This document shows, in pieces, positions 55,576-64,000 of a DNA stretch of 64,000 nt (position 1 is its first letter; each line of letters starts with the position of its first letter). The stretch spans positions 1,672,001 through 1,736,000 of the forward strand of contig NZ_CP076135.1 of assembly GCF_018736105.1 (NCBI RefSeq). Reading direction: 5' to 3'. The DNA comes from Bradyrhizobium sediminis (GTDB lineage Bacteria > Pseudomonadota > Alphaproteobacteria > Rhizobiales > Xanthobacteraceae). The notes beneath the pieces were generated by a model. That model saw only the letters and a program-made list of their open reading frames with translations. It did not search any database and was not told the DNA's origin. The position numbers were made by a program, and so were the translations under genes.

Positions 55576-56093
55576 TCATGCAAGCGTTCCGCGGATCGGA
55601 TAACTCCGTTCCTGAACGAATTTGAGACCCATTAGTACCGAATTCAGTTCCGGTCGTGCAAACGGGGCATTGGAAATATCAATGATCTGGAGTCTTCCCT
55701 CGGGATTGGTGATGAACAGTGCGGGCTCGGGAAACGGGCGGTCGGTTTCCTGCGGCGATCGAGGCTTCGAGATATAGAGGCCAAGGGTGCGCATCTGGTC
55801 CAGCGACAGATCGTAGCCGACGGGGAAGCGCCATTTTTCATTCCCAGCTTCGGTCTCTGCCTTTTCCCTTGGGTCCGCTGATACCGCGGCCACTTCGGTG
55901 CCGGCGTCCATGAACCGGTCAAGAAGTCCATCGAGTGTCTTCAGATAGGTGCGGCAAATGGGGCAGTGCTTGCCGCGGTAGCGACCAGCATCTTCCAACC
56001 CCCTGCGCCCCCGATCTGCAATTCGCCGCCTCCGACCTTGGGCAGCGAGATCGTCGGAAGGATTGAACCGGCTTCTAATTTTGGAGGCGACAT
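55576..56093 (-). pseudogene. AhpC/TSA-type peroxiredoxin, frameshifted
   Basis: From ATG 56093 the frame reads MSPPKLEAGSILPTISLPKV and goes through GGWKMLV, then hits a stop at 55941 after 50 residues. The rest of a redoxin domain follows in another frame: YRGKHCPICRTYLKTLDGL, then VAAVSADPREKAE, GYDLSLDQMRTLGLYIS and the end YPIRGTLA. One base is missing near 55980-55985, where GTC-GC-TAC replaces an expected GTC-GTC-TAC. The catalytic-type CPIC lies behind the break. It is either a decayed gene or a sequencing error. A SigF-type promoter stands 57 bases upstream of the ATG. Confidence 0.7.
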
Positions 56094-56445
56094 TCGTATT
56101 CTCCGCGCAACGATGCAAAACCCTGATTCTGTGCTTATTCAGATGCCAGTTCGTCCAAAGTGTCTGTGATGTTACGCTACGCATCCAATTAATGTCTTCA
56201 GAGTGCGTGCTCGGGCCGCCGGGGTCATGCGCAGCAGTGGGAGGAGCGCCCGCGAGGCGTGCTTCCTGGATCGGAGGGCAAGGCCGATCGCCGTATGAAC
56301 AAAATACACAACAGTCGCCTGCCTTGGGTTGGAGGCGAACGCCACATCCCGTGCAGTCATAGAAGAACTGGCACGCATTCGTTGGCATCGTTTCGAGCTT
56401 TGCCGTCCCGCAATGGGGACACGCAATCAGAGCGTCAAGCGTCAC
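55576..56445 (-). CDS. GDCCVxC-domain protein; frame runs on into the peroxiredoxin remnant
   Basis: From GTG 56445 the protein starts LDALIACPHCGTAKLETMP and contains CTGCG, KAGDCCVFCSYGDRPCPPIQ, the hallmark of the small GDCCVxC (putative heavy-metal-binding) proteins, which are about 70-80 residues long. Here no stop follows: the frame stays open for 289 residues and enters the second part of the frameshifted peroxiredoxin. The run-on is probably an accident of decay rather than a designed fusion, because residues about 75-150 look like translated non-coding DNA. The first 65 residues are the real domain. It lies 57 bases after nrsF. Confidence 0.6.
   Translation of the reverse strand: MTLDALIACPHCGTAKLETMPTNACQFFYDCTGCGVRLQPKAGDCCVFCSYGDRPCPPIQEARLAGAPPTAAHDPGGPSTHSEDINWMRSVTSQTLWTNWHLNKHRIRVLHRCAENTNVASKIRSRFNPSDDLAAQGRRRRIADRGRRGLEDAGRYRGKHCPICRTYLKTLDGLLDRFMDAGTEVAAVSADPREKAETEAGNEKWRFPVGYDLSLDQMRTLGLYISKPRSPQETDRPFPEPALFITNPEGRLQIIDISNAPFARPELNSVLMGLKFVQERSYPIRGTLA
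56150..56175 (-). promoter_or_regulatory. SigF-type promoter of the peroxiredoxin gene
   Basis: On the minus strand GTAACA, 16 bases, CGAA. The CGAA box ends 56 bases before ATG 56093. The pattern and spacing are the same as at 57921, 60240 and 60951. Confidence 0.7.
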
Positions 56446-56502
56446 TATCCAGCTCCAGGCTGGGCCAAAGGCGGGGCCCGGGATCGAGGTTAAACGTGCG
56501 AA

Positions 56503-57186
56503 CTAATGCGCTGCCAGATTGCGGCGAACCCTTGCGACCACAGGACGCCAATCCAGGAACAATCGGCCGGCCCATCCGCAAAGAATAGTCAGCATGAAGA
56601 CAGTTCCCATCTGCCAGACCAGTACCATCAAACTCGCGTCTTGATTGTGGAAGAGACGAAGACCGAAGTTGCCCAATCCCGCCGCCGCCAAGCCCCCAAG
56701 CGCCGCCGAAGCATGCGGCCAAAGCGGCGCTCCTTTTCGCAGCATGAATACCATCGCCGCGGCCGGCAGCGTTCCCACCAGTGCAATCGCCGGAATACAG
56801 ATGAAATCCGAGGCAAAATTCTGTAGAGCGTTTCCGCGCAACCACAGCTGAACACAGCCTTGCCCGAGGCTGACCAGCCAAACCGACAGCGGTACCAGCG
56901 GAAGCAACAGGAAGCGGCGGTTGTATCCGGGAACGATCGACTGAAAGGCGGCAACGGCGGCACCGATCGCCGTGCAAAGCGCAGCCACCTGCTCGAGAAG
57001 AAAACGAGGATCCGCGAACTTGACAGCGAGATCGTCACGCGGAGTCATCATCATGACGATGACCGCGACATAGGGGATCGCGATCGCAAGCCACGATGCA
57101 GTTCGAACCCAAGGCGACGGAAGCCGCTGGACGGGATCCGCTTTCTCGGTCAGACACGCTATCAGCTTGTCGGTATCCATGCCCAT
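56503..57186 (-). CDS. nrsF: NrsF-type anti-sigma factor (DUF1109 membrane protein)
   Basis: A 227-residue protein with six membrane helices of the DUF1109 family. It starts MGMDTDKLIACLTEKADPV, has the typical helix GYNRRFLLLPLVPLSVWL, cysteines in LCTAIG, QGCVQLW and ICIPA, and KGAPLWPHASAALGGLAAAGLG in the second half. In Caulobacter and relatives NrsF keeps the ECF factor SigF inactive at the membrane and its cysteines take part in sensing. Its start overlaps the sigF stop (TAATG), so the pair is translationally coupled. Confidence 0.88.
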   Translation of the reverse strand: MGMDTDKLIACLTEKADPVQRLPSPWVRTASWLAIAIPYVAVIVMMMTPRDDLAVKFADPRFLLEQVAALCTAIGAAVAAFQSIVPGYNRRFLLLPLVPLSVWLVSLGQGCVQLWLRGNALQNFASDFICIPAIALVGTLPAAAMVFMLRKGAPLWPHASAALGGLAAAGLGNFGLRLFHNQDASLMVLVWQMGTVFMLTILCGWAGRLFLDWRPVVARVRRNLAAH

Positions 57187-57749
57187 TACTCTCTGTTAAG
57201 AGCCTTCCGCAGGTTCAAGACCGCCCGGTGGATCGAAATCTTCAGCGCTCCAACAGTCGTTCCGCTCGCCGCTGCCGCCTCCTTGAGCGACATTTCGCGC
57301 AGTTTCAGCATTTCGATCGCCTTCCTCTGACCGTCCGGCAGGTTCTTGATAGCAATCGAAAGCTCTTCCGGGTCGCGATATTCCTCGTTCTCTACATTCG
57401 TCCAATCATCGGCAAAGGTTACGGGGAGTTCGTCCACTTGGACTTCATTTGATTTGCCCCGATAATACCGTCGTGCACTGTCGATTAGCCTGTTGTGGGC
57501 GATCGTAGATAGCCATGGCATGAACGGACGTTTTGGGTCGAAAGTCGCGCGTACGGCGTGGACCGATAGGAGGATCTCCTGAACCAGGTCCTCGACTTCC
57601 TCAGCCGTGAAAAATTGCCGACGCCTTCGCACGATCTGGCGCAACTTTGGCGTGATTTCCCTCAAGAGGCGCTCATAGGCGCGCATATCGCCGGCCTGTG
57701 CGGCCTGCATGAGCGCCTCCATGGTAGGCGAACTGGAATCCCGCTTCAT
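57186..57749 (-). CDS. sigF: SigF-type ECF sigma factor
   Basis: A 187-residue ECF sigma factor. Region 2 (about 20-90) contains ITPKLRQIVRRRRQFFTAEEVEDLVQEILLSVH in two pieces and PFMPWLSTIAHNRLIDSAR. Region 4 (about 125-180) contains LPDGQRKAIEMLKLREMSLKEAAAASG and ALKISIHRAVLNLRKAL. The coupled DUF1109 partner identifies it as SigF of the Caulobacter/Bradyrhizobium type, used under oxidative and metal stress. I find no GTAAC-N16-CGAA site in front of sigF itself, so its own promoter is of another type. Confidence 0.88.
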   Translation of the reverse strand: MKRDSSSPTMEALMQAAQAGDMRAYERLLREITPKLRQIVRRRRQFFTAEEVEDLVQEILLSVHAVRATFDPKRPFMPWLSTIAHNRLIDSARRYYRGKSNEVQVDELPVTFADDWTNVENEEYRDPEELSIAIKNLPDGQRKAIEMLKLREMSLKEAAAASGTTVGALKISIHRAVLNLRKALNRE

Positions 57750-57920
57750 GTCACCGTAACAGCCTCTGGGTCTCGCAAACCATCAAGCGTACATCCTAAA
57801 TGAACCGATATCCGGAGGTCGAGGGCGCAGACTAGCAGAGATCCGTCGACGGCGCGGCAAGAGCCGTGAAGACCCCGACCGGAGGTGGATGCCGGCAGAC
57901 TTATATTTTGCGGCGAGCGC

Positions 57921-57946
57921 GTAACTTCCGCCGGCTTCGAAGCGAA
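57921..57946 (+). promoter_or_regulatory. SigF-type promoter of the thioredoxin-ccdA operon
   Basis: GTAACT (57921-57926), 16 bases, CGAA (57943-57946). The start codon of the thioredoxin gene is 45 bases downstream. The match to GTAAC(C)-N16-CGAA, known for SigF of Caulobacter, is exact apart from the sixth base. Confidence 0.75.
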
Positions 57947-57990
57947 ACTCCAGAGCTGGCCGTCTTGGCTTCCTCGGAGATACATCGCAC

Positions 57991-58371
57991 ATGTTATTGA
58001 AATCCTTAAAGACACTGATCGCATCGGCTTTCCTTGTCGGGGGCGCGCTGGTCGCCCAGGCCGCGCAACCGTTCGATACGAGCGCGTTCCAGCAAGCGCA
58101 GGCGGCCGGGAAGTCCATCCTTGTCGATGTGACCGCACCTTGGTGTCCGACGTGCAAGCAGCAGCGGCCGATCGTGCAGGAAATCGAAAAATCGACGCCA
58201 AATCTGGTTGTCTATGAAGTGGACTTCGATAACGCGAAGGACGTCCTGAAGCGCTTTCGGGTTCAAAATCAGAGCACCCTCATCGTGTTCAAGGGCGCCA
58301 ACGAGGTTGGCAGGTCCGCGGGCGACACCAATCCTGCAAGCATCAGGGCTCTTGTCTCGAAAGGGCTTTGA
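57991..58371 (+). CDS. Periplasmic thioredoxin-fold protein
   Basis: A 126-residue protein with a signal peptide (MLLKSLKTLIASAFLVGG, cleavage near AQAA) and a thioredoxin domain with active site APWCPTCKQQ (about residues 50-59), cis-proline region NQSTLIVFKG and normal length. It would reduce disulfides or peroxidatic partners in the periplasm. The ccdA-like membrane protein gene begins 1 base after its stop, so electrons probably come through that protein. It is transcribed from the SigF-type site at 57921-57946. Confidence 0.88.
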   Translation: MLLKSLKTLIASAFLVGGALVAQAAQPFDTSAFQQAQAAGKSILVDVTAPWCPTCKQQRPIVQEIEKSTPNLVVYEVDFDNAKDVLKRFRVQNQSTLIVFKGANEVGRSAGDTNPASIRALVSKGL

Positions 58372-58372
58372 G

Positions 58373-59098
58373 GTGCCCGAAATCGGCAATCTGGCGCTCA
58401 GCTACGCCGCGGGCGCGCTATCGACTCTCTCCCCATGCGTGCTTCCATTGCTGCCGATTGTACTATTCGGCGTGCTTGAGAGGCATGCCTGGGGACCGGT
58501 TGCCCTGGCTGCCGGCCTTGCGACATCGTTCGCCGTGTTGGGTACCACGATCGCCTCCGTCGGCTTCAATATAGGTCTGGATCCCGCGGCGCTCAGATAC
58601 GCCATCGCGATGCTCATGCTCGCCATGGGCGTCGTACTGCTTATCCCCGCCCTGCAGGGAAGGCTGGCGGCCTTCGCAGCTCCCGTCGCAACCGGCGGAC
58701 AAACATTGCTCGATCGCATTCAGCCATCCGGACTTGGCGGACAGTTCGTACTCGGTGGTCTGCTGGGCGCCATCTGGTCGCCCTGTTCCGGTCCAACTCT
58801 CGGAGCCGCGATCGGACTTGCGGCTCAGGGTGACACCGTCATCAAGGCGGCTGCCGTGATGGCGCTCTTCGGGCTCGGAGCGGCGACGCCGATCCTGGCA
58901 CTCGCCTATGGTTCCAGGCAGGCGATCCTTACCCGCCGAGATCTGCTGGCAAAGACATCGCGCATCGCAAAGCCCGTCATGGGCGTGGCGTTTGCGTTCG
59001 TCGGCGCATTCGTACTTACCGGCATCGACAAGATTGTGGAAACGTCGTTGACGAATGCGCTGCCGGATTGGCTGACAGCTCTAACCACTCGGCTGTGA
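58373..59098 (+). CDS. CcdA/DsbD-type thiol electron carrier membrane protein
   Basis: A 241-residue protein from GTG 58373. It has six membrane helices with the two redox cysteines in LSPCVLPLLP (first helix) and WSPCSGPTLG (fourth helix), as in CcdA and the centre of DsbD. It would pass electrons from cytoplasmic thioredoxin to the periplasmic thioredoxin encoded just upstream. The two genes are 1 base apart. It could also serve cytochrome c maturation, but the neighbours point to stress repair. Confidence 0.85.
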   Translation: MPEIGNLALSYAAGALSTLSPCVLPLLPIVLFGVLERHAWGPVALAAGLATSFAVLGTTIASVGFNIGLDPAALRYAIAMLMLAMGVVLLIPALQGRLAAFAAPVATGGQTLLDRIQPSGLGGQFVLGGLLGAIWSPCSGPTLGAAIGLAAQGDTVIKAAAVMALFGLGAATPILALAYGSRQAILTRRDLLAKTSRIAKPVMGVAFAFVGAFVLTGIDKIVETSLTNALPDWLTALTTRL

Positions 59099-59237
59099 AA
59101 CCATCGAACTACGCGGAAAGAAGCAAAGGAAAGCCATCGCAGCAGGCATGGCAATGATGGCCTGGCTCACGGCAGGGTAGCGACGAATGCGAGATGCACG
59201 CCCGTCAGATTTCGTCGTCCAAGCGAAAGGACAAACC

Positions 59238-59717
59238 ATGGTACGATTGGCACTTTCGATGGCGGCAGTGTTCATCGGCCTTTCGGCAGCTTCCGCAGGC
59301 ACCGTCAAGACGCGCGCAGGGTGGGCCGTCATCGACACACGGCAATCCTTCCAGGCGCTGGTCGAGCGGCTTGAGGCAACCGTAAAATCTGAGAAAATGG
59401 GTATCGTAACCTCGGCGAGCGCGTCCGAGGGGGCGAAGGCGGCAGGCGTCGCGATTCCGGGAAACAAGGTGTTCGGCGTGTTCCGAAACGACTTCGCGCG
59501 ACGGATGCTGGGTTCGAGCGTGGCCGCCGGCATAGAGGCTCCCATTCGCATGTACGTCACGGAAAATCAGGACGGTACGGCGACGCTTTCCTACAAGAAG
59601 CCCAGCACTGTGTTTGCGCCCTATGCCGATGAAGGCGGAGATGCACTTAAATCGGTCGGCGCAGAGCTGGACGCGATATTCGCCAGAATCGCCGAGCGGA
59701 CAACTTCCGATAAGTAA
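59238..59717 (+). CDS. DUF302-family secreted protein
   Basis: A 159-residue protein from ATG 59238 with AAAGGA upstream and a signal peptide ending ASA. The DUF302 domain is visible in QSFQALVERLEATVKSEKMG, IPGNKVFGVFRNDFARRML, PIRMYVTENQDGTATLSYKKPS and the final helix. DUF302 proteins are small periplasmic proteins of unknown job, frequent near thiol and sulfur genes. It follows ccdA by 139 bases without an obvious promoter of the SigF type, so it may be read from the thioredoxin promoter. Confidence 0.8.
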   Translation: MVRLALSMAAVFIGLSAASAGTVKTRAGWAVIDTRQSFQALVERLEATVKSEKMGIVTSASASEGAKAAGVAIPGNKVFGVFRNDFARRMLGSSVAAGIEAPIRMYVTENQDGTATLSYKKPSTVFAPYADEGGDALKSVGAELDAIFARIAERTTSDK

Positions 59718-59775
59718 CGTTCGACCAATGCCGGATCGGTGCAAGCATATGTTCCAGCCCATGCGGCATGTGAAC

Positions 59776-60169
59776 TTCGAAGCAAAATCCCACGGAACAA
59801 CGCGCCGATGCCGTCGGACTGGATGCCGATGGTCGGCGGGTATTGCTGGAAGACGGGCGTTCAGTGTCAGGCGATCTGATTTCCGTCGACGTCGGCGCGG
59901 TAACCGACACATCGAAGGCGCCGCGAAACAACGGGTTGCTTGTTTCCGTAAAGCCGATGGATGAATTCGAGAATTTCTGGCCGATGATCGAGCAACGGAT
60001 GAAATCCGATTCGGGCATCCGGATCGCGGTGGTCGGCGCCGGCGCAGCGGGCGTCGAGCTTGCGCTCGCAATTCGATATCGGCTGGATCAGATGAACGCG
60101 GGGACCGACAAGCGTGCCGGGGTCGTCTTGGTGGAGAGGGACCGATTTGAGGACGGCAATTCCGGATAG
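59776..60169 (+). pseudogene. Fragment of an FAD/NAD(P)-dependent oxidoreductase (NDH-2/SelD-N-like)
   Basis: The plus frame carries RADAVGLDADGRRVLLEDGR, then SGDLISVDVG, VSVKPMDEFENFWPMIE, IRIAVVGAGAAGVELALAIRYRL and stops at 60169. This is the middle of a two-dinucleotide-binding oxidoreductase: the first FAD motif and the whole C-terminal half are missing. No start codon makes sense. It is a remnant lying between the DUF302 gene and the DoxX promoter. Confidence 0.65.
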
Positions 60170-60239
60170 ACCACGCCGAGGCAAAGTTTCGACCGGCGCA
60201 GTCCAGGCAAGATATTCGTCGTTTGCCGTATTGCAGCAA

Positions 60240-60265
60240 GTAACAAATCCGGCTCCCGAAGCGAA
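60240..60265 (+). promoter_or_regulatory. SigF-type promoter of the doxX gene
   Basis: GTAACA (60240-60245), 16 bases, CGAA (60262-60265). ATG 60308 follows after 42 bases. It lies just behind the oxidoreductase remnant. Confidence 0.75.
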
Positions 60266-60307
60266 CCCAGAGGGACGGTCCAGGGTGGCGAATACCAGGG
60301 AGAGACC

Positions 60308-60781
60308 ATGAAATCGATCGTATTTCTGTTAATAGCGCTGCCGGCGCAGATTGCTTCATATTTTCCGTGGATCGGACCGCTGATCATGCGGCTTGTCGTC
60401 GGTTACGTATTCATGCTCACCGGCTGGGCCAAGCTCAACAATCTTCCCCAGATGATCCAGAACTTCTCTGAATGGGGAATCCCGTTTCCCGCCATTCTGA
60501 CGCCGTTCGTCTCCGCCGTGGAATGCTTCGGCGGCGCCATGCTGATCCTGGGATTGTTTACCCGTATCCCGGCGGCCATGCTGACGGTCGTTATGATCGT
60601 CGCGATCAAGGCGGCAAAATGGGAAAACGCGGATTCCCTGGAAACGTTGCTTGGATTTGAGGAGGCGACCTACCTGGCGGCCTTCCTTTGGCTCGCGATC
60701 GCGGGGCCAGGCGCAGCCTCCCTTGACCGGCTGCTACTGCGGCTGACCGGCCAGGAAAGTGAGCGATCGAAGCTCGTTTGA
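60308..60781 (+). CDS. DoxX-family membrane protein
   Basis: A 157-residue protein with four membrane helices. The DoxX signature IMRLVVGYVFMLTGWAKL in helix 1-2 and FVSAVECFGGAMLILGLFTRIPA in helix 3 are clear. DoxX-like proteins belong to quinone- and thiol-linked membrane oxidoreductase systems and are a regular companion of bufferin and DUF692 gene clusters. Separate SigF-type promoter upstream (60240-60265). Upstream GGGAGAGACC acts as a ribosome-binding region. Confidence 0.85.
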   Translation: MKSIVFLLIALPAQIASYFPWIGPLIMRLVVGYVFMLTGWAKLNNLPQMIQNFSEWGIPFPAILTPFVSAVECFGGAMLILGLFTRIPAAMLTVVMIVAIKAAKWENADSLETLLGFEEATYLAAFLWLAIAGPGAASLDRLLLRLTGQESERSKLV

Positions 60782-61184
60782 GCAGACCAGAGTCGGCTTG
60801 AGCAAGCGTCCGCAGAAAATGGTTTTGCACCTGCCCTCTGAGAAACGCACCTGAGCCGCTTTCGCTGATTGTGTGAATTCGCGTTGGTGAGGATCAGCGT
60901 CACGGGGTTTCGCCTGCCGGGGGCTAAGGAAAAAATAGCCGCGGGTAGGTGTAACAATCCGGACTGCTCAATCGAAACATATCGCAGGCAACCGGTGAAA
61001 GGATCGAGGCGCAAGCAAAACCCACCGGCCATGACGACTTGGTGTGTGTAGGGAAATTTGACTTCGATATCGATCACACGTCGGTTGCCGAAGACGTTGC
61101 TCGGGGTTCTTTGAAGGCCGGATCAGTCAGCCTGGCTCGATAACGACCCTTTTCATTACCAACCCAAGTCTGGAGGAAAATATC
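60782..61184. other. Leader region of the first bufA2 gene
   Basis: This 403-base gap contains the SigF-type promoter at 60951-60976 and then a leader of 208 bases to ATG 61185. GGAGG stands before the start codon. An open stretch without a start codon ends at TAA 61141-61143 (GKFDFDIDHTSVAEDVARG); I do not trust it as a gene. Confidence 0.45.
60951..60976 (+). promoter_or_regulatory. SigF-type promoter of the first bufA2 gene
   Basis: GTAACA (60951-60956), 16 bases, CGAA (60973-60976). It is the only such site in the 403-base gap before bufA2 and lies 209 bases from the start codon, farther than at the other genes. Confidence 0.65.
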
Positions 61185-61442
61185 ATGAAGCTTAGCTCAA
61201 AGTCCGGTGCCACTCTCGCTGCTGCTGCCGCTACTCTGTTCCTGGCCGGTGCCACCATGTCGACCGTGACTTACGCGGCGGGTGAAGGTCACTGCGTCGG
61301 CGCAAATGCCTGCAAGGGCCAGAGCGCCTGCAAGAGCGCTTCGAACGCCTGCAAGGGCCAGAATGCCTGTAAGGGCCAGGGGTTCTCGGAGTTGACCAAG
61401 GAAAAATGCGCCGCAGTGAAGGGCAAATTCAAGGCGGGCTAA
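61185..61442 (+). CDS. bufA2: Bufferin-type (BufA2 family) secreted Cys-rich peptide, copy 1
   Basis: An 85-residue precursor. The signal peptide (residues 1-31, ending TYAA) is followed by a 54-residue mature part with six cysteines in a repeated pattern: GEGHC, GANACKGQSACKSASNAC, KGQNACKGQG and KEKC. This is the hallmark of the BufA2 bufferins, RiPP-like metallophores whose cysteines are modified by a DUF692 (MNIO) enzyme and which bind copper in the periplasm. TGGAGG stands before the ATG and a strong terminator follows the stop. No DUF692 or DUF2063 gene is in the window. A near-identical leader starts at 63888. Confidence 0.85.
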   Translation: MKLSSKSGATLAAAAATLFLAGATMSTVTYAAGEGHCVGANACKGQSACKSASNACKGQNACKGQGFSELTKEKCAAVKGKFKAG

Positions 61443-61463
61443 TCGCCTTCGTCCCGATCCAAG

Positions 61464-61495
61464 GGGCCCGGCTGCGCGCCGGGCCCTTTTTTTTT
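61464..61495 (+). terminator. Rho-independent terminator of bufA2 copy 1
   Basis: GGGCCCGG (61464-61471), a short loop, CCGGGCCC (61479-61486) and nine T. It begins 21 bases after the stop codon. This is the strongest terminator in the window. Confidence 0.92.
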
Positions 61496-61519
61496 GGCTA
61501 AAAGCGCGCTTTGGCCAAA

Positions 61520-63580
61520 TTACTTTCTTTGCGCAATTGTGGTGTCATCCCAGTCGTCGCCCGTTGGCGTTTCGAGTTGCGTTTTGCAGCGTTCGATCAT
61601 TACTGATGATGCCTGGTCTTGATTTCGAAGGTTCACGACCTTCTCAAAATCGAGAATTGCGGCGGCAAAATCACGTGCCCGATAAGACACAAGGCCGGAT
61701 TCGTAATGCTCCACCCAACTGGGAACGTCCGCGAATTCGTCGGCCATACCCAACAATTCATAAATCCGCAGCCCCCCAGACCGACCGTAGACGGCCAGCC
61801 GATCGAGCTCGCGAACGAGTATTTGATTGCCAGCCAGCCGGCGCGTTTCCGGTCCAATGATGATCCGGGATCCGTAGAGCTTGTTGGTGCCCTCGAGGCG
61901 GCTTGCGATATTTACCGCGTCACCAATGACCGTATAATTCAATCTGACTTCCGATCCGATGTTACCGACCAGCATTTCGCCGGAGTTGATACCGATACGA
62001 ATCGTCACGGCTGCGCCCTCATCGTCGACGAGAGCGAGCTCTCCAACCGCCTGCTGGCACGCCAGCGCGGCCCGGCAGCAGTCGACGGCATGATCGGGGT
62101 TAAGCGCAGGCGCTCCCCAAAATGCCATCACGGCATCGCCAATGAACTTGTCGATGGTGCCGCCATGGCGCTGAACCTGCGCCGATACCGAGTCGAAATA
62201 GCGGGACAGCAAGGGGATGATCCGATCACCCATGCGTTCCGACATTCCGGTAAAGCCTGCCAGGTCGACGAACATCACGCTCATCGATCGCACGGCGCCG
62301 CCGAGGCGCGCACCGCCGCCGTCGCTTATTAGACGCTTAACCAGATCGGCAGGGATGTATTTTCTGAACGCAGCGAGCCCCTGCGCCATATCTCCGATAG
62401 CTCCGGACAGGTTCTCGATCTCGGTCAGCCGCGACGGATGCCGTTCGACCTTTTCGAGATCGAATCGTTCGACGTGCCTGATTTCGTTGACAACCTTGAG
62501 GAGCGGGCCTGCGATCAGACGCTGGGCGAACCAGGCTGAGAACAGGCCGGCGGCAATGATCAGAGCCGCAAGGCCTACGAGCAGTCTCTGGATCGTCATC
62601 CGGACCGGTCCCAGAAACTCTGATTCAGGAACAACCGTCACCAGTGACCAGCCCGGAAACGAAATCGGCGTCAGTACCGCTTCGTAGGCTTGATCACCTT
62701 GAAGAACCCGCGTGCGATAGGCGTCTCCCTGCTCGGGGTCATAGCTCAGTGCGGATTGCCGGGCTGCAATCACCGCGACCGGAAAGAGCGGATGGTTGGT
62801 CTTGAGCGCGTTGATCTCGTCGGCGTCTGGGTCCGGCGAGGCGATGGCCGCACCGCTACGATCGAGGATGAAGGCTCCCGCCGACTTTCCAACCGTGAGC
62901 TGCGACAGGAATCGCGACACCCGGGTCAGTTCGATGACGATGCTGAGCACGCCCTGGCGCTTCTGATCGATGTCGATCGGACCGGCAAGCGCCACGGCAA
63001 GCCGGTCGCTTCCGGGCTGGCTGGTGAGATTGAACCAGCGCGGTCCCACCGATTGCATCGCCTCGTCGAACCATTCCTGCTTGATGACGGAATACGACGT
63101 TTCTTCGGATCGGGTGTCCTTGAAGCGGAGATCGCCGTCGACCAGCTCATAGCGGTCGATCCGCAGCTTCAACTGACTGTCGGGAGCTTTCTCGGGAAGT
63201 TCCAGCATCTCGACAGCCGCGTCGCCGAGTTTGTGAACAGCAGAGAGCGATCCGTCCGGCCAGCCGAACACCACCCATGAAATGGTCGGCTGGGCCTGCA
63301 ACTGCGAGAGGAAAACGAACCTGCGTTTCTCGGCTTCCCGCGGATCGAGGACGCCGCCCTGAAACAGGGTGCGGACGGCGGCATGGGCGGATCTGGCCTC
63401 CGTCGTGATCGACTGCAGCTCATCGCCGACGGCAGAGACGATCTGCTCGTTGATCGTGGTGGCAAGCGTCTGGCTGGTTTGTTCGGCGGTTCTCCACCAC
63501 AGCAGATGAACGCCTACAGCGCTGACGATGATAGACGCCAGCACAAGTCCTGAAATAGCGCTGCGAATTCCGATGCGCAT
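61520..63580 (-). CDS. Membrane adenylate/guanylate cyclase with extracytoplasmic sensor
   Basis: A 686-residue protein. Helix 1 (about 8-28), a periplasmic double-Cache-like sensor (about 30-325), helix 2 (about 331-351), a HAMP-type linker (to about 405) and a class III cyclase domain (about 425-600) follow in order. The cyclase has VMFVDLAGFTGMSERMG, FIGDAVMAFWGAP and LNYTVIGDAVNIASRLEG, all intact. A TPR-like tail (about 615-670) ends the protein. It would make cAMP in answer to a periplasmic signal. It lies between the two bufA2 genes on the opposite strand. Confidence 0.88.
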   Translation of the reverse strand: MRIGIRSAISGLVLASIIVSAVGVHLLWWRTAEQTSQTLATTINEQIVSAVGDELQSITTEARSAHAAVRTLFQGGVLDPREAEKRRFVFLSQLQAQPTISWVVFGWPDGSLSAVHKLGDAAVEMLELPEKAPDSQLKLRIDRYELVDGDLRFKDTRSEETSYSVIKQEWFDEAMQSVGPRWFNLTSQPGSDRLAVALAGPIDIDQKRQGVLSIVIELTRVSRFLSQLTVGKSAGAFILDRSGAAIASPDPDADEINALKTNHPLFPVAVIAARQSALSYDPEQGDAYRTRVLQGDQAYEAVLTPISFPGWSLVTVVPESEFLGPVRMTIQRLLVGLAALIIAAGLFSAWFAQRLIAGPLLKVVNEIRHVERFDLEKVERHPSRLTEIENLSGAIGDMAQGLAAFRKYIPADLVKRLISDGGGARLGGAVRSMSVMFVDLAGFTGMSERMGDRIIPLLSRYFDSVSAQVQRHGGTIDKFIGDAVMAFWGAPALNPDHAVDCCRAALACQQAVGELALVDDEGAAVTIRIGINSGEMLVGNIGSEVRLNYTVIGDAVNIASRLEGTNKLYGSRIIIGPETRRLAGNQILVRELDRLAVYGRSGGLRIYELLGMADEFADVPSWVEHYESGLVSYRARDFAAAILDFEKVVNLRNQDQASSVMIERCKTQLETPTGDDWDDTTIAQRK

Positions 63581-63775
63581 GCCGTCACCTTCGCTGCGGA
63601 CTACCGCGACAGATTCGCGAGCATATCGTCAATGGCGGTCGGAAGCCTATCCGGCAACCAGTCTCGGAGCGCCAATCTGGGGAAGCGTATCCGTCCTGAA
63701 CCCTCGAGAATTGGCCGATGATCCGGAATTCGGGGGTCCGGTCGAGGGGATCACCAAATAAATTCGAACTGCGGC

Positions 63776-63801
63776 GTAACCAACAGCAAACCTTGTGCGT
63801 A
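63776..63801 (+). promoter_or_regulatory. SigF-type promoter of bufA2 copy 2
   Basis: GTAACC (63776-63781), 16 bases, CGTA (63798-63801). The -35-like box is a perfect match and the second box differs in one base. ATG 63888 follows after 86 bases. It lies in the 307-base gap 63581-63887, which otherwise holds the cyclase promoter area. Confidence 0.6.
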
Positions 63802-63887: not shown

Positions 63888-64000
63888 ATGAAACTTACTT
63901 CCCGGTCCGGCGCCGCCATCGCCGCCGCAGCCGCAAGCCTGTTCCTGGCGGGAACGACGCTGTCGACGGTTGCCTATGCGGCCGGCGAAGGTCACTGCGT
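63888..64000 (+). CDS. bufA2: Bufferin-type (BufA2 family) secreted peptide, copy 2 (cut by window edge)
   Basis: ATG 63888 with a strong ribosome-binding site (TAGGAGGAATG). The first 37 codons give MKLTSRSGAAIAAAAASLFL, then AGTTLSTVAYAAGEGHC. This is the same signal peptide and mature start as copy 1 (61185), with about nine changes in 38 residues. The rest, including the Cys repeats, is outside the window. In bufferin operons the DUF692 and DUF2063 enzyme genes come next, so this copy may head the full operon. Confidence 0.8.
   Translation, partial: MKLTSRSGAAIAAAAASLFLAGTTLSTVAYAAGEGHC

Follow-up and report, generated by a model that had tools for sequence, protein, structure and literature searches.

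A predicted ECF16 sigma factor regulon with Buf2 bufferin genes and a candidate promoter inside sigF in Bradyrhizobium sediminis

SigF, an extracytoplasmic function (ECF) sigma factor of group ECF16, and its putative membrane anti-sigma factor NrsF are encoded near the end of a stretch of 64,000 nucleotides of Bradyrhizobium sediminis DNA (contig NZ_CP076135.1, positions 1,672,001 to 1,736,000, forward strand). The whole stretch is called the window, and coordinates are counted from its first letter. The genes around the pair probably form a bufferin-type regulon for copper and thiol stress under the control of SigF, with six nearby promoters that include one embedded in sigF and serving nrsF. 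This reading is based on the promoter motif, the positions of the sites, their conservation, the constraint on codons and the gene families. By analogy with related systems, SigF would bind the sites, stress would be the signal and the bufferins may bind copper.

Genes of the locus

The sigF gene (57186-57749, minus strand) encodes a protein of 187 amino acids that contains sigma2 and sigma4 domains only (PF04542, 43.5 bits; PF08281, 32.2 bits), and its relatives are ECF sigma genes, mostly with nrsF as the next gene. In the window, nrsF (56503-57186, minus strand) is likewise adjacent and encodes a DUF1109-type anti-sigma factor (PF06532, 95.3 bits against a cut-off of 26.8). The alignment places cysteines at positions 111 and 130 of this protein and none at the position of residue 181. 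As had been claimed, both genes lie centrally among the presumed targets, and the family models confirm their identity.

Downstream on the same strand, a long open reading frame (ORF; 55576-56445, minus strand) covers a small GDCCVxC protein at its N-terminal end (NF041374, 94.9 bits), a promoter site in its middle and, C-terminally, an AhpC/TSA peroxiredoxin part (prx; PF00578, 46.1 bits). On the plus strand, trx (57991-58371; PF00085, 57 bits) encodes a thioredoxin-like protein with an export signal recognized by eye. It is followed by a ccdA-like gene for a membrane thiol transporter of the CcdA/DsbD type (58373-59098; PF02683, 36.8 bits, scanned as 58307-59098) and by a gene for a DUF302 protein (59187-59717; PF03625, 37.6 bits) that is possibly on the trx-ccdA transcript. 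The next gene, doxX (60308-60781, plus strand), matches PF07681 with 75.2 bits and NF050144 with 72.2 bits, the latter below the cut-off of 80. In the interval between the DUF302 gene and doxX (59760-60170), a remnant frame with stops resembling an FAD-type oxidoreductase was seen by eye; its part at 59843-60169 gave no Pfam match.

Two genes for bufferin precursors follow on the plus strand, bufA2-1 (61185-61442) and bufA2-2, of which only the beginning (63888-64000) lies in the window (complete gene at L028:9888-10145). Both products are above the cut-off of 60 for Cu_RiPP_BufA2 (NF050166, 86.1 and 86.6 bits). Six cysteines, an N-terminal end that looks like a signal peptide by eye, and partner genes for an MNIO maturase and a DUF2063 protein complete the assignment to BufA2. 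The partners lie past the end of the window, after bufA2-2, as bufB (NF050167, 384 bits) and bufC (PF09836, 67.1 bits). The end of bufC is overlapped by a gene for a 348-residue protein (L028:11931-12977) that has no Pfam or NCBIfam match and is 57% identical to one encoded after the Buf2 unit of another locus, L102. Between the two bufA2 genes, on the minus strand, lies a gene for an adenylate/guanylate cyclase with a dCache domain (61520-63580; PF00211, 82.7 bits; PF02743, 51 bits), with no exact site in front.

SigF-type sites at the locus

Promoters of ECF16 factors have been described with the consensus tGTAACc-N16-CGAA, and that of Caulobacter SigF as GTAACC-N16-CGAA (PMC3511200). The consensus of Brucella BcrS is given as (T/C)GTAAC-N17-CGAA (PMC8315932) and the motif of Sinorhizobium RpoE7 is of the same type (PMC6180224), while that of Bradyrhizobium japonicum EcfF, GTAAC(g,a)-N14-15-(c,t)CG(t,a), is compatible with either spacing and with CGTA (PMC3420878). 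The window was scanned with the pattern GTAAC-N17-CG[AT]A, which can also be written GTAACN-N16-CG[AT]A and is referred to as spacing 17. The original prediction of five promoters matching the Caulobacter SigF consensus was borne out in every coordinate and strand, and the sites agree with the published ECF16/SigF motif without mismatch. Four carry CGAA, located before the prx frame (56150-56175, minus strand), trx-ccdA (57921-57946, plus), doxX (60240-60265, plus) and bufA2-1 (60951-60976, plus); the fifth, before bufA2-2-bufB-bufC (63776-63801, plus), carries CGTA. A sixth exact match had been missed. It lies within sigF at codons 110-118 (57397-57422, minus strand) and points to nrsF. From the end of the site to the start codon, the distance is 44 nucleotides (nt) for trx, 42 nt for doxX, 56 nt for prx, 86 nt for bufA2-2, 208 nt for bufA2-1 and 210 nt for nrsF. 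The sites are very likely ECF16-type promoters.

It had been proposed that each of the five sites stands in front of a gene start, which holds for trx, doxX, bufA2-1 and bufA2-2. The site of the peroxiredoxin gene is found inside the longest ORF, as prx differs by a frame shift from its closest orthologue, in genome G006. At the G006 locus (L060), a small GDCCVxC protein is followed by the promoter and then by a peroxiredoxin with its own start, whereas a three-frame comparison with the window showed the shifted peroxiredoxin frame and a single ORF across all three elements. The shift points either to decay of the gene or to an error in sequencing. As a target unit, the peroxiredoxin thus retains an exact site, present at the same place in L060, which is the sole close orthologue locus with this gene, but its frame is broken in the window.

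Could such a short motif have gathered here by chance? About 0.20 chance matches are expected in 64 kb, and six were never attained in 100 shuffles. The genome-wide scan suggested with the original prediction (5.45 Mb) returned 27 matches, compared with 64 for the backwards pattern, so the motif shows no excess over the genome as a whole, which is the one point that would favor chance. Local clustering is strong nonetheless, with 6 of the 27 matches inside 7.65 kb where 0.03 are expected (Poisson P(>=6) 9e-13), leaving 21 spacing-17 matches elsewhere. Given the shuffles, the Poisson test and the conservation counts reported below, a chance gathering is practically negligible as an explanation.

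Conservation was examined first among close relatives. Within the genus, sigF was found at E<=1e-40 in 28 of 265 genomes, the source genome included, and five of the other genes are 86-90% identical to the window sigF; the window and these five orthologue loci form the window clade of six members. At the five loci, the site is present before trx in 4/4 cases (L096-L099), before bufA2 in 5/5 genes, inside sigF in 5/5, before prx in 1/1 (G006) and before doxX in 1/4 (L098). In genomes G254, G255 and G258, doxX is located behind trx-ccdA and lacks its own site. The 20 kb examined around the G006 locus contain neither trx nor doxX nor any buf gene, and the site there fronts the DUF302 gene instead.

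A wider set was obtained with the two BufA2 proteins as queries, which led to 69 loci with flanks of up to 10 kb a side, 35 of them carrying the record title Bradyrhizobium. Sites of spacing 16 or 17 were sought up to 300 bp upstream of genes for which the upstream sequence sufficed; owing to the relatedness of the loci, the counts are not independent. In the Bradyrhizobium-titled loci, 67/67 bufA2 genes have a site, a number of which each of 40 permuted motifs reached at most 1, and doxX has one in 31/33 cases, compared with bufB in 0/34 and bufC in 0/33. Cyclase homologues beside tandem bufA2 genes (28 in these loci) have their own SigF-type site in 3/28 cases. In loci not titled Bradyrhizobium, 13/42 bufA2 genes have a site. 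The recurrence of sites before the same genes in relatives supports a promoter function.

A conserved element within sigF

To follow the site inside sigF, searches at the level of genus, order, class and family were combined into a panel of 98 distinct sigF genes; these are the genes whose loci were retrieved, fewer than all matches listed. An element with at least 8 of 9 matching positions was present in 60/98 of these alphaproteobacterial genes, in one register in the linker between sigma2 and sigma4. In the window clade, where each of the six members matches 9/9, the codons read GTA ACC TT[TC] ... [AG]CG AA[TC], and many more distant genes have GAA ACC TTT ... NCG AAC in the same register. 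This GAAAC variant keeps a glutamate that is conserved widely, even in genes without the element; a valine in its place in the window clade and in the family loci L303-L305 yields the perfect match. When 49 sequences were tested column by column, any other column had at most 1 match of 8/9.

Codon choice at the element is strongly biased. The A, T, S or P codon before the AA-codon ends in CG in 62/63 genes (expected 42%), the Glu or Val codon before Thr ends in A in 61/65 (expected 36%), Thr is encoded by ACC in 60/67 (expected 43%), and the third base of Phe or Tyr is T in 54/63 (expected 22%). Among 28 class-level sequences from other orders, the corresponding counts are 20/20, 20/21, 17/22 and 16/21. 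With the sequences clustered at 60% identity into 36 lineages, of which 19-21 were usable per test, P values in the same order are 8e-7, 2e-7, 2e-4 and 1.5e-8. In 27 sequences of the same genus, the four promoter columns rank first among column sets of the same geometry, with the window clade in or out. The element appears to be more than a peptide motif because codon choice is constrained while the residue varies.

In form, the element also matches the promoter sites outside the gene. In 58/59 genes, 202-241 nt separate its end from the sigF stop codon, and the nrsF start is no more than 27 nt from that stop, again in 58/59. In loci that bear sigF, 78 exact sites outside the gene favor CTTT after GTAAC and GCGAAC at -10, so that embedded element and outside sites have a common extended form, GTAACCTTT...GCGAAC. 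Among the 98 genes, 2 have both an embedded and an upstream site, 58 the embedded one only, 11 an exact upstream one only and 27 neither (P 4e-4, with kinship ignored); genes with one of the two sites mostly do not have the other. In a held-out check, four of five further sigF genes had the element and no upstream site, and the fifth had an exact upstream site and no element. In 24/24 held-out EcfF-type genes (36-40% identity to the window sigF), an exact site lay 71-76 nt upstream of the matched start, and the element was found in 0/24.

In addition, nrsF genes without an adjacent sigma gene were seen at three loci (L102:18688-19341, L228 and L230), each with a SigF-type site just upstream, and SigF-driven expression of the anti-sigma factor alone thus seems to recur. 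The orphan nrsF-like gene of L102 is divergent from a bufA2-bufB-bufC unit.

Several observations weigh against an embedded promoter. Outside the window clade and L303-L305, most embedded sites are of the GAAAC form, with one mismatch in the -35 box, and 38/98 sigF genes have no element. Within the six-member clade alone, the codon constraint is not outstanding (rank 31). Moreover, no codon signal was detected in an additional set of 22 sigF genes, of which 21 belong to other families of the order; the element is mostly absent from this set (present in 3/22). The element is present in 1/4 sigF genes without nrsF versus 59/92 with nrsF (P 0.15), so that its loss is not clearly tied to a missing nrsF.

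Part of these data would suit an origin as a by-product of the linker peptide (ETFA..AN) combined with codon bias, namely the glutamate that is conserved at the protein level regardless of the element, the single mismatch of the commonest form and the lack of signal in the additional set of 22 sigF genes. However, third bases at the box positions are fixed far beyond codon usage and across distant families, this fixation persists where the residue before Asn varies between A, T, S and P, and other columns reach 8/9 in at most one of 49 sequences, making a by-product unlikely. An actual DNA or RNA element with another role, for instance in sigma-dependent pausing or as the start of a fragment containing SigF region 4, has also been considered. 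The nearly constant distance to the sigF stop codon is compatible with it, and a start at this place would include the region-4 codons. Since the element is like the outside promoters in form, spacing and flanks, and orphan nrsF genes carry the motif as an ordinary upstream promoter, such a role is rated as rather improbable.

The most far-reaching interpretation, which on balance appears probable, is that many alphaproteobacterial ECF16 sigma genes hold a copy of their own promoter in linker codons about 210 nt before the stop, the frame having evolved around the promoter, with feedback through the anti-sigma factor only, which in the window clade would replace positive self-regulation. No embedded SigF promoter was found in the open-licence literature, which is not proof of novelty. 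A possible precedent is the sigmaE promoter before rseA within rpoE of Escherichia coli.

Feedback through the anti-sigma factor

Positive autoregulation is described for most ECF factors (PMC8103513). For ECF16 factors, a promoter of their own is usual though not universal, and the window sigF departs from this: no upstream site with at least 8/9 matches was detected within 350 nt of sigF in the window or its five orthologues (0/6). The earlier statement that sigF has no such site is therefore correct for the upstream region of all six genes, but an exact site lies inside the gene. Across the window clade, sigF and the trx operon are arranged divergently; in G006, the DUF302 gene takes the place of that operon. 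Because sigF has no upstream site and is divergent from the target operon, the loop through SigF would be negative only.

In the proposed circuit, membrane-bound NrsF would hold SigF until stress acting on NrsF releases it. Free SigF would then start transcription of the prx frame, trx-ccdA-DUF302, doxX, bufA2-1, bufA2-2-bufB-bufC and nrsF. With the element within the sigF coding sequence as the putative nrsF promoter, active SigF would lead to more NrsF and not to more SigF. Provided that the embedded promoter fires and raises NrsF, such negative-only feedback may keep the response short and graded.

A second ECF16 factor and the Buf2 units of the genus

The source genome contains a second ECF16/NrsF pair of the EcfF type (C1:2080714 and C1:2081265), whose sigma gene is preceded by a site of spacing 16. 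The claim of a local regulon in which a sigma factor, its sensor and at least five target units are packed into 8 kb is supported by the motif, the gene families and the sites in relatives. It was broadly right, yet incomplete, because the sixth site in sigF and the second sigma factor sharing the motif were missed; with that second pair and with sites remote from the cluster, the regulon is not confined to this locus.

Of the 21 spacing-17 sites outside the cluster, 9 fall within predicted genes according to a rough rule of length and GC content at third codon positions (GC3). Reading of the frames downstream of the other 12 gave two likely targets. One site lies 75 nt before msrA (PF01625, 207 bits) and the other 48 nt before a cytochrome b561 gene (PF01292, 90 bits) that is followed by a YedY-like frame recognized by eye. 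Genes for MsrA and YedY are known targets of EcfF or SigF elsewhere (PMC3420878, PMC3511200). The ten other remote sites were set aside as targets; the genes behind them, which include one for a response regulator (82 nt) and one for a transporter-like protein (88 nt), were judged not telling. Sites of spacing 16 number 15 in the genome, and among three inspected only that of ecfF looked meaningful. The remote sites L003, L004 and L026 have the common start GTAACGAAGC and a CGTA box, near the EcfF form of the motif; only L003 clearly precedes a gene.

Across the genus, Buf2 units mostly occur without a linked sigma gene. Among the 35 Bradyrhizobium-titled BufA2 loci, sigF or nrsF was found in the flanks of only two, L116 and L118, both of the window clade, and none was seen in 33/35. 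When 24 Bradyrhizobium genomes with BufA2 were searched for NrsF, all of them (24/24) proved to have a pair of the EcfF/OsrA type with a spacing-16 site of its own, and a single NrsF-family match was obtained in 19/24. Because of these two counts, the Buf2 unit in these genomes looks like a distant target of EcfF, whereas the window clade has a dedicated sigF-nrsF pair next to it.

The second factor could use the same promoters in the source genome as well, which weighs against assigning the regulon to SigF. The window sites would then be ECF16 promoters under EcfF with its OsrA-type anti-sigma factor, or under both factors jointly. The 24 genomes fit such control, in that bufA2 sites are present even where a single NrsF match was found; the EcfF motif permits both spacings and CGTA, and expression of ecfS is reported to be raised in an osrA mutant (PMC3420878). 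On the other hand, the targets in the window clade surround a dedicated sigF-nrsF pair. Spacing is 17 in each of the six window sites, whereas the sites in front of EcfF-type genes in this genus have spacing 16. Control by EcfF, alone or shared, is accordingly regarded as possible but doubtful. Judged by sequence, either ECF16 factor may act at a given site.

The NrsF sensor

In Caulobacter NrsF, both C131 and C181 matter (PMC3511200). The window NrsF retains the counterpart of C131 as C130, lacks C181 and has an additional C111, and thus deviates from the pair of the Caulobacter and OsrA types (C131+C181, or C129/C179). The C111+C130 form occurs in 85/93 aligned NrsF proteins; this set is biased, having been selected through similarity to two sigF proteins. 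The second NrsF of the source genome (C1:2081265-2081873) has C131+C181, and the two forms in one genome possibly read different signals. For the C111+C130 form, the best guess for the signal is copper, on account of the bufferin targets and of the copper sensitivity described for a Caulobacter sigF mutant (PMC8224329). An AlphaFold2 model of NrsF from three sequences was set aside (mean pLDDT 41, pTM 0.32).

Relation to known systems and significance

SigF-NrsF of Caulobacter crescentus, the ECF16 prototype, resembles the window in the order of sigma and anti-sigma genes, the promoter and the bufferin-type DUF2282-DUF692-DUF2063-DoxX targets (PMC3511200). It differs in that sigF has its own promoter, the precursors are of the DUF2282 (Buf1) type and NrsF carries C131+C181 (PMC3511200). 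The window, by comparison, has Buf2 precursors, no site upstream of sigF, an embedded site before nrsF and an NrsF with C111+C130. RpoE7/EcfR7 of Sinorhizobium meliloti shares the motif and a DUF692/DUF2063 unit divergent from the sigma gene, but rpoE7 has its own site, and the available text of the report mentions neither trx-ccdA nor Buf2 (PMC6180224). EcfF/OsrA of B. japonicum, with the motif, an NrsF-family anti-sigma factor and MsrA targets in common, is self-regulated, has a C129/C179 anti-sigma factor and is described as responding to peroxide and singlet oxygen (PMC3420878); it corresponds to the second ECF16 system of the source genome, and spacing is 16 before the EcfF-type genes examined here.

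Among other relatives, Brucella BcrS/AbcS shares the consensus and differs by its bcrXQP operon with a methionine-rich protein and by a hypochlorite signal (PMC8315932). In Cupriavidus metallidurans, the gig bufferin operon is, as in the window, divergent from an ECF sigma/anti-sigma pair, rpoQ-rsqA, and copper elicits a response (PMC10304878, PMC13192273). In the reported work, dependence of gig on RpoQ was not demonstrated (PMC10304878), and the bufferin modelled from this organism is Buf1 (PMC12452194). A survey of bufferin clusters records sigma/NrsF genes with Buf1 and none with Buf2 (PMC12452194). The system is thus one of a known kind, whose new features are the linkage to Buf2, the absence of sigF self-regulation and the embedded promoter, predicted here.

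The different cysteine pair of NrsF is a hint that this branch responds to a signal other than that of the EcfF/OsrA branch in the same cell. The sites would tie Buf2 copper-binding peptides to ECF16 control, by physical linkage in the window clade and through promoters without a linked sigma gene elsewhere in the genus. If the interpretation of the embedded element is true, a promoter is hidden in a coding sequence whose codon choice has been bent around it, and this promoter sets the sign of a feedback loop.

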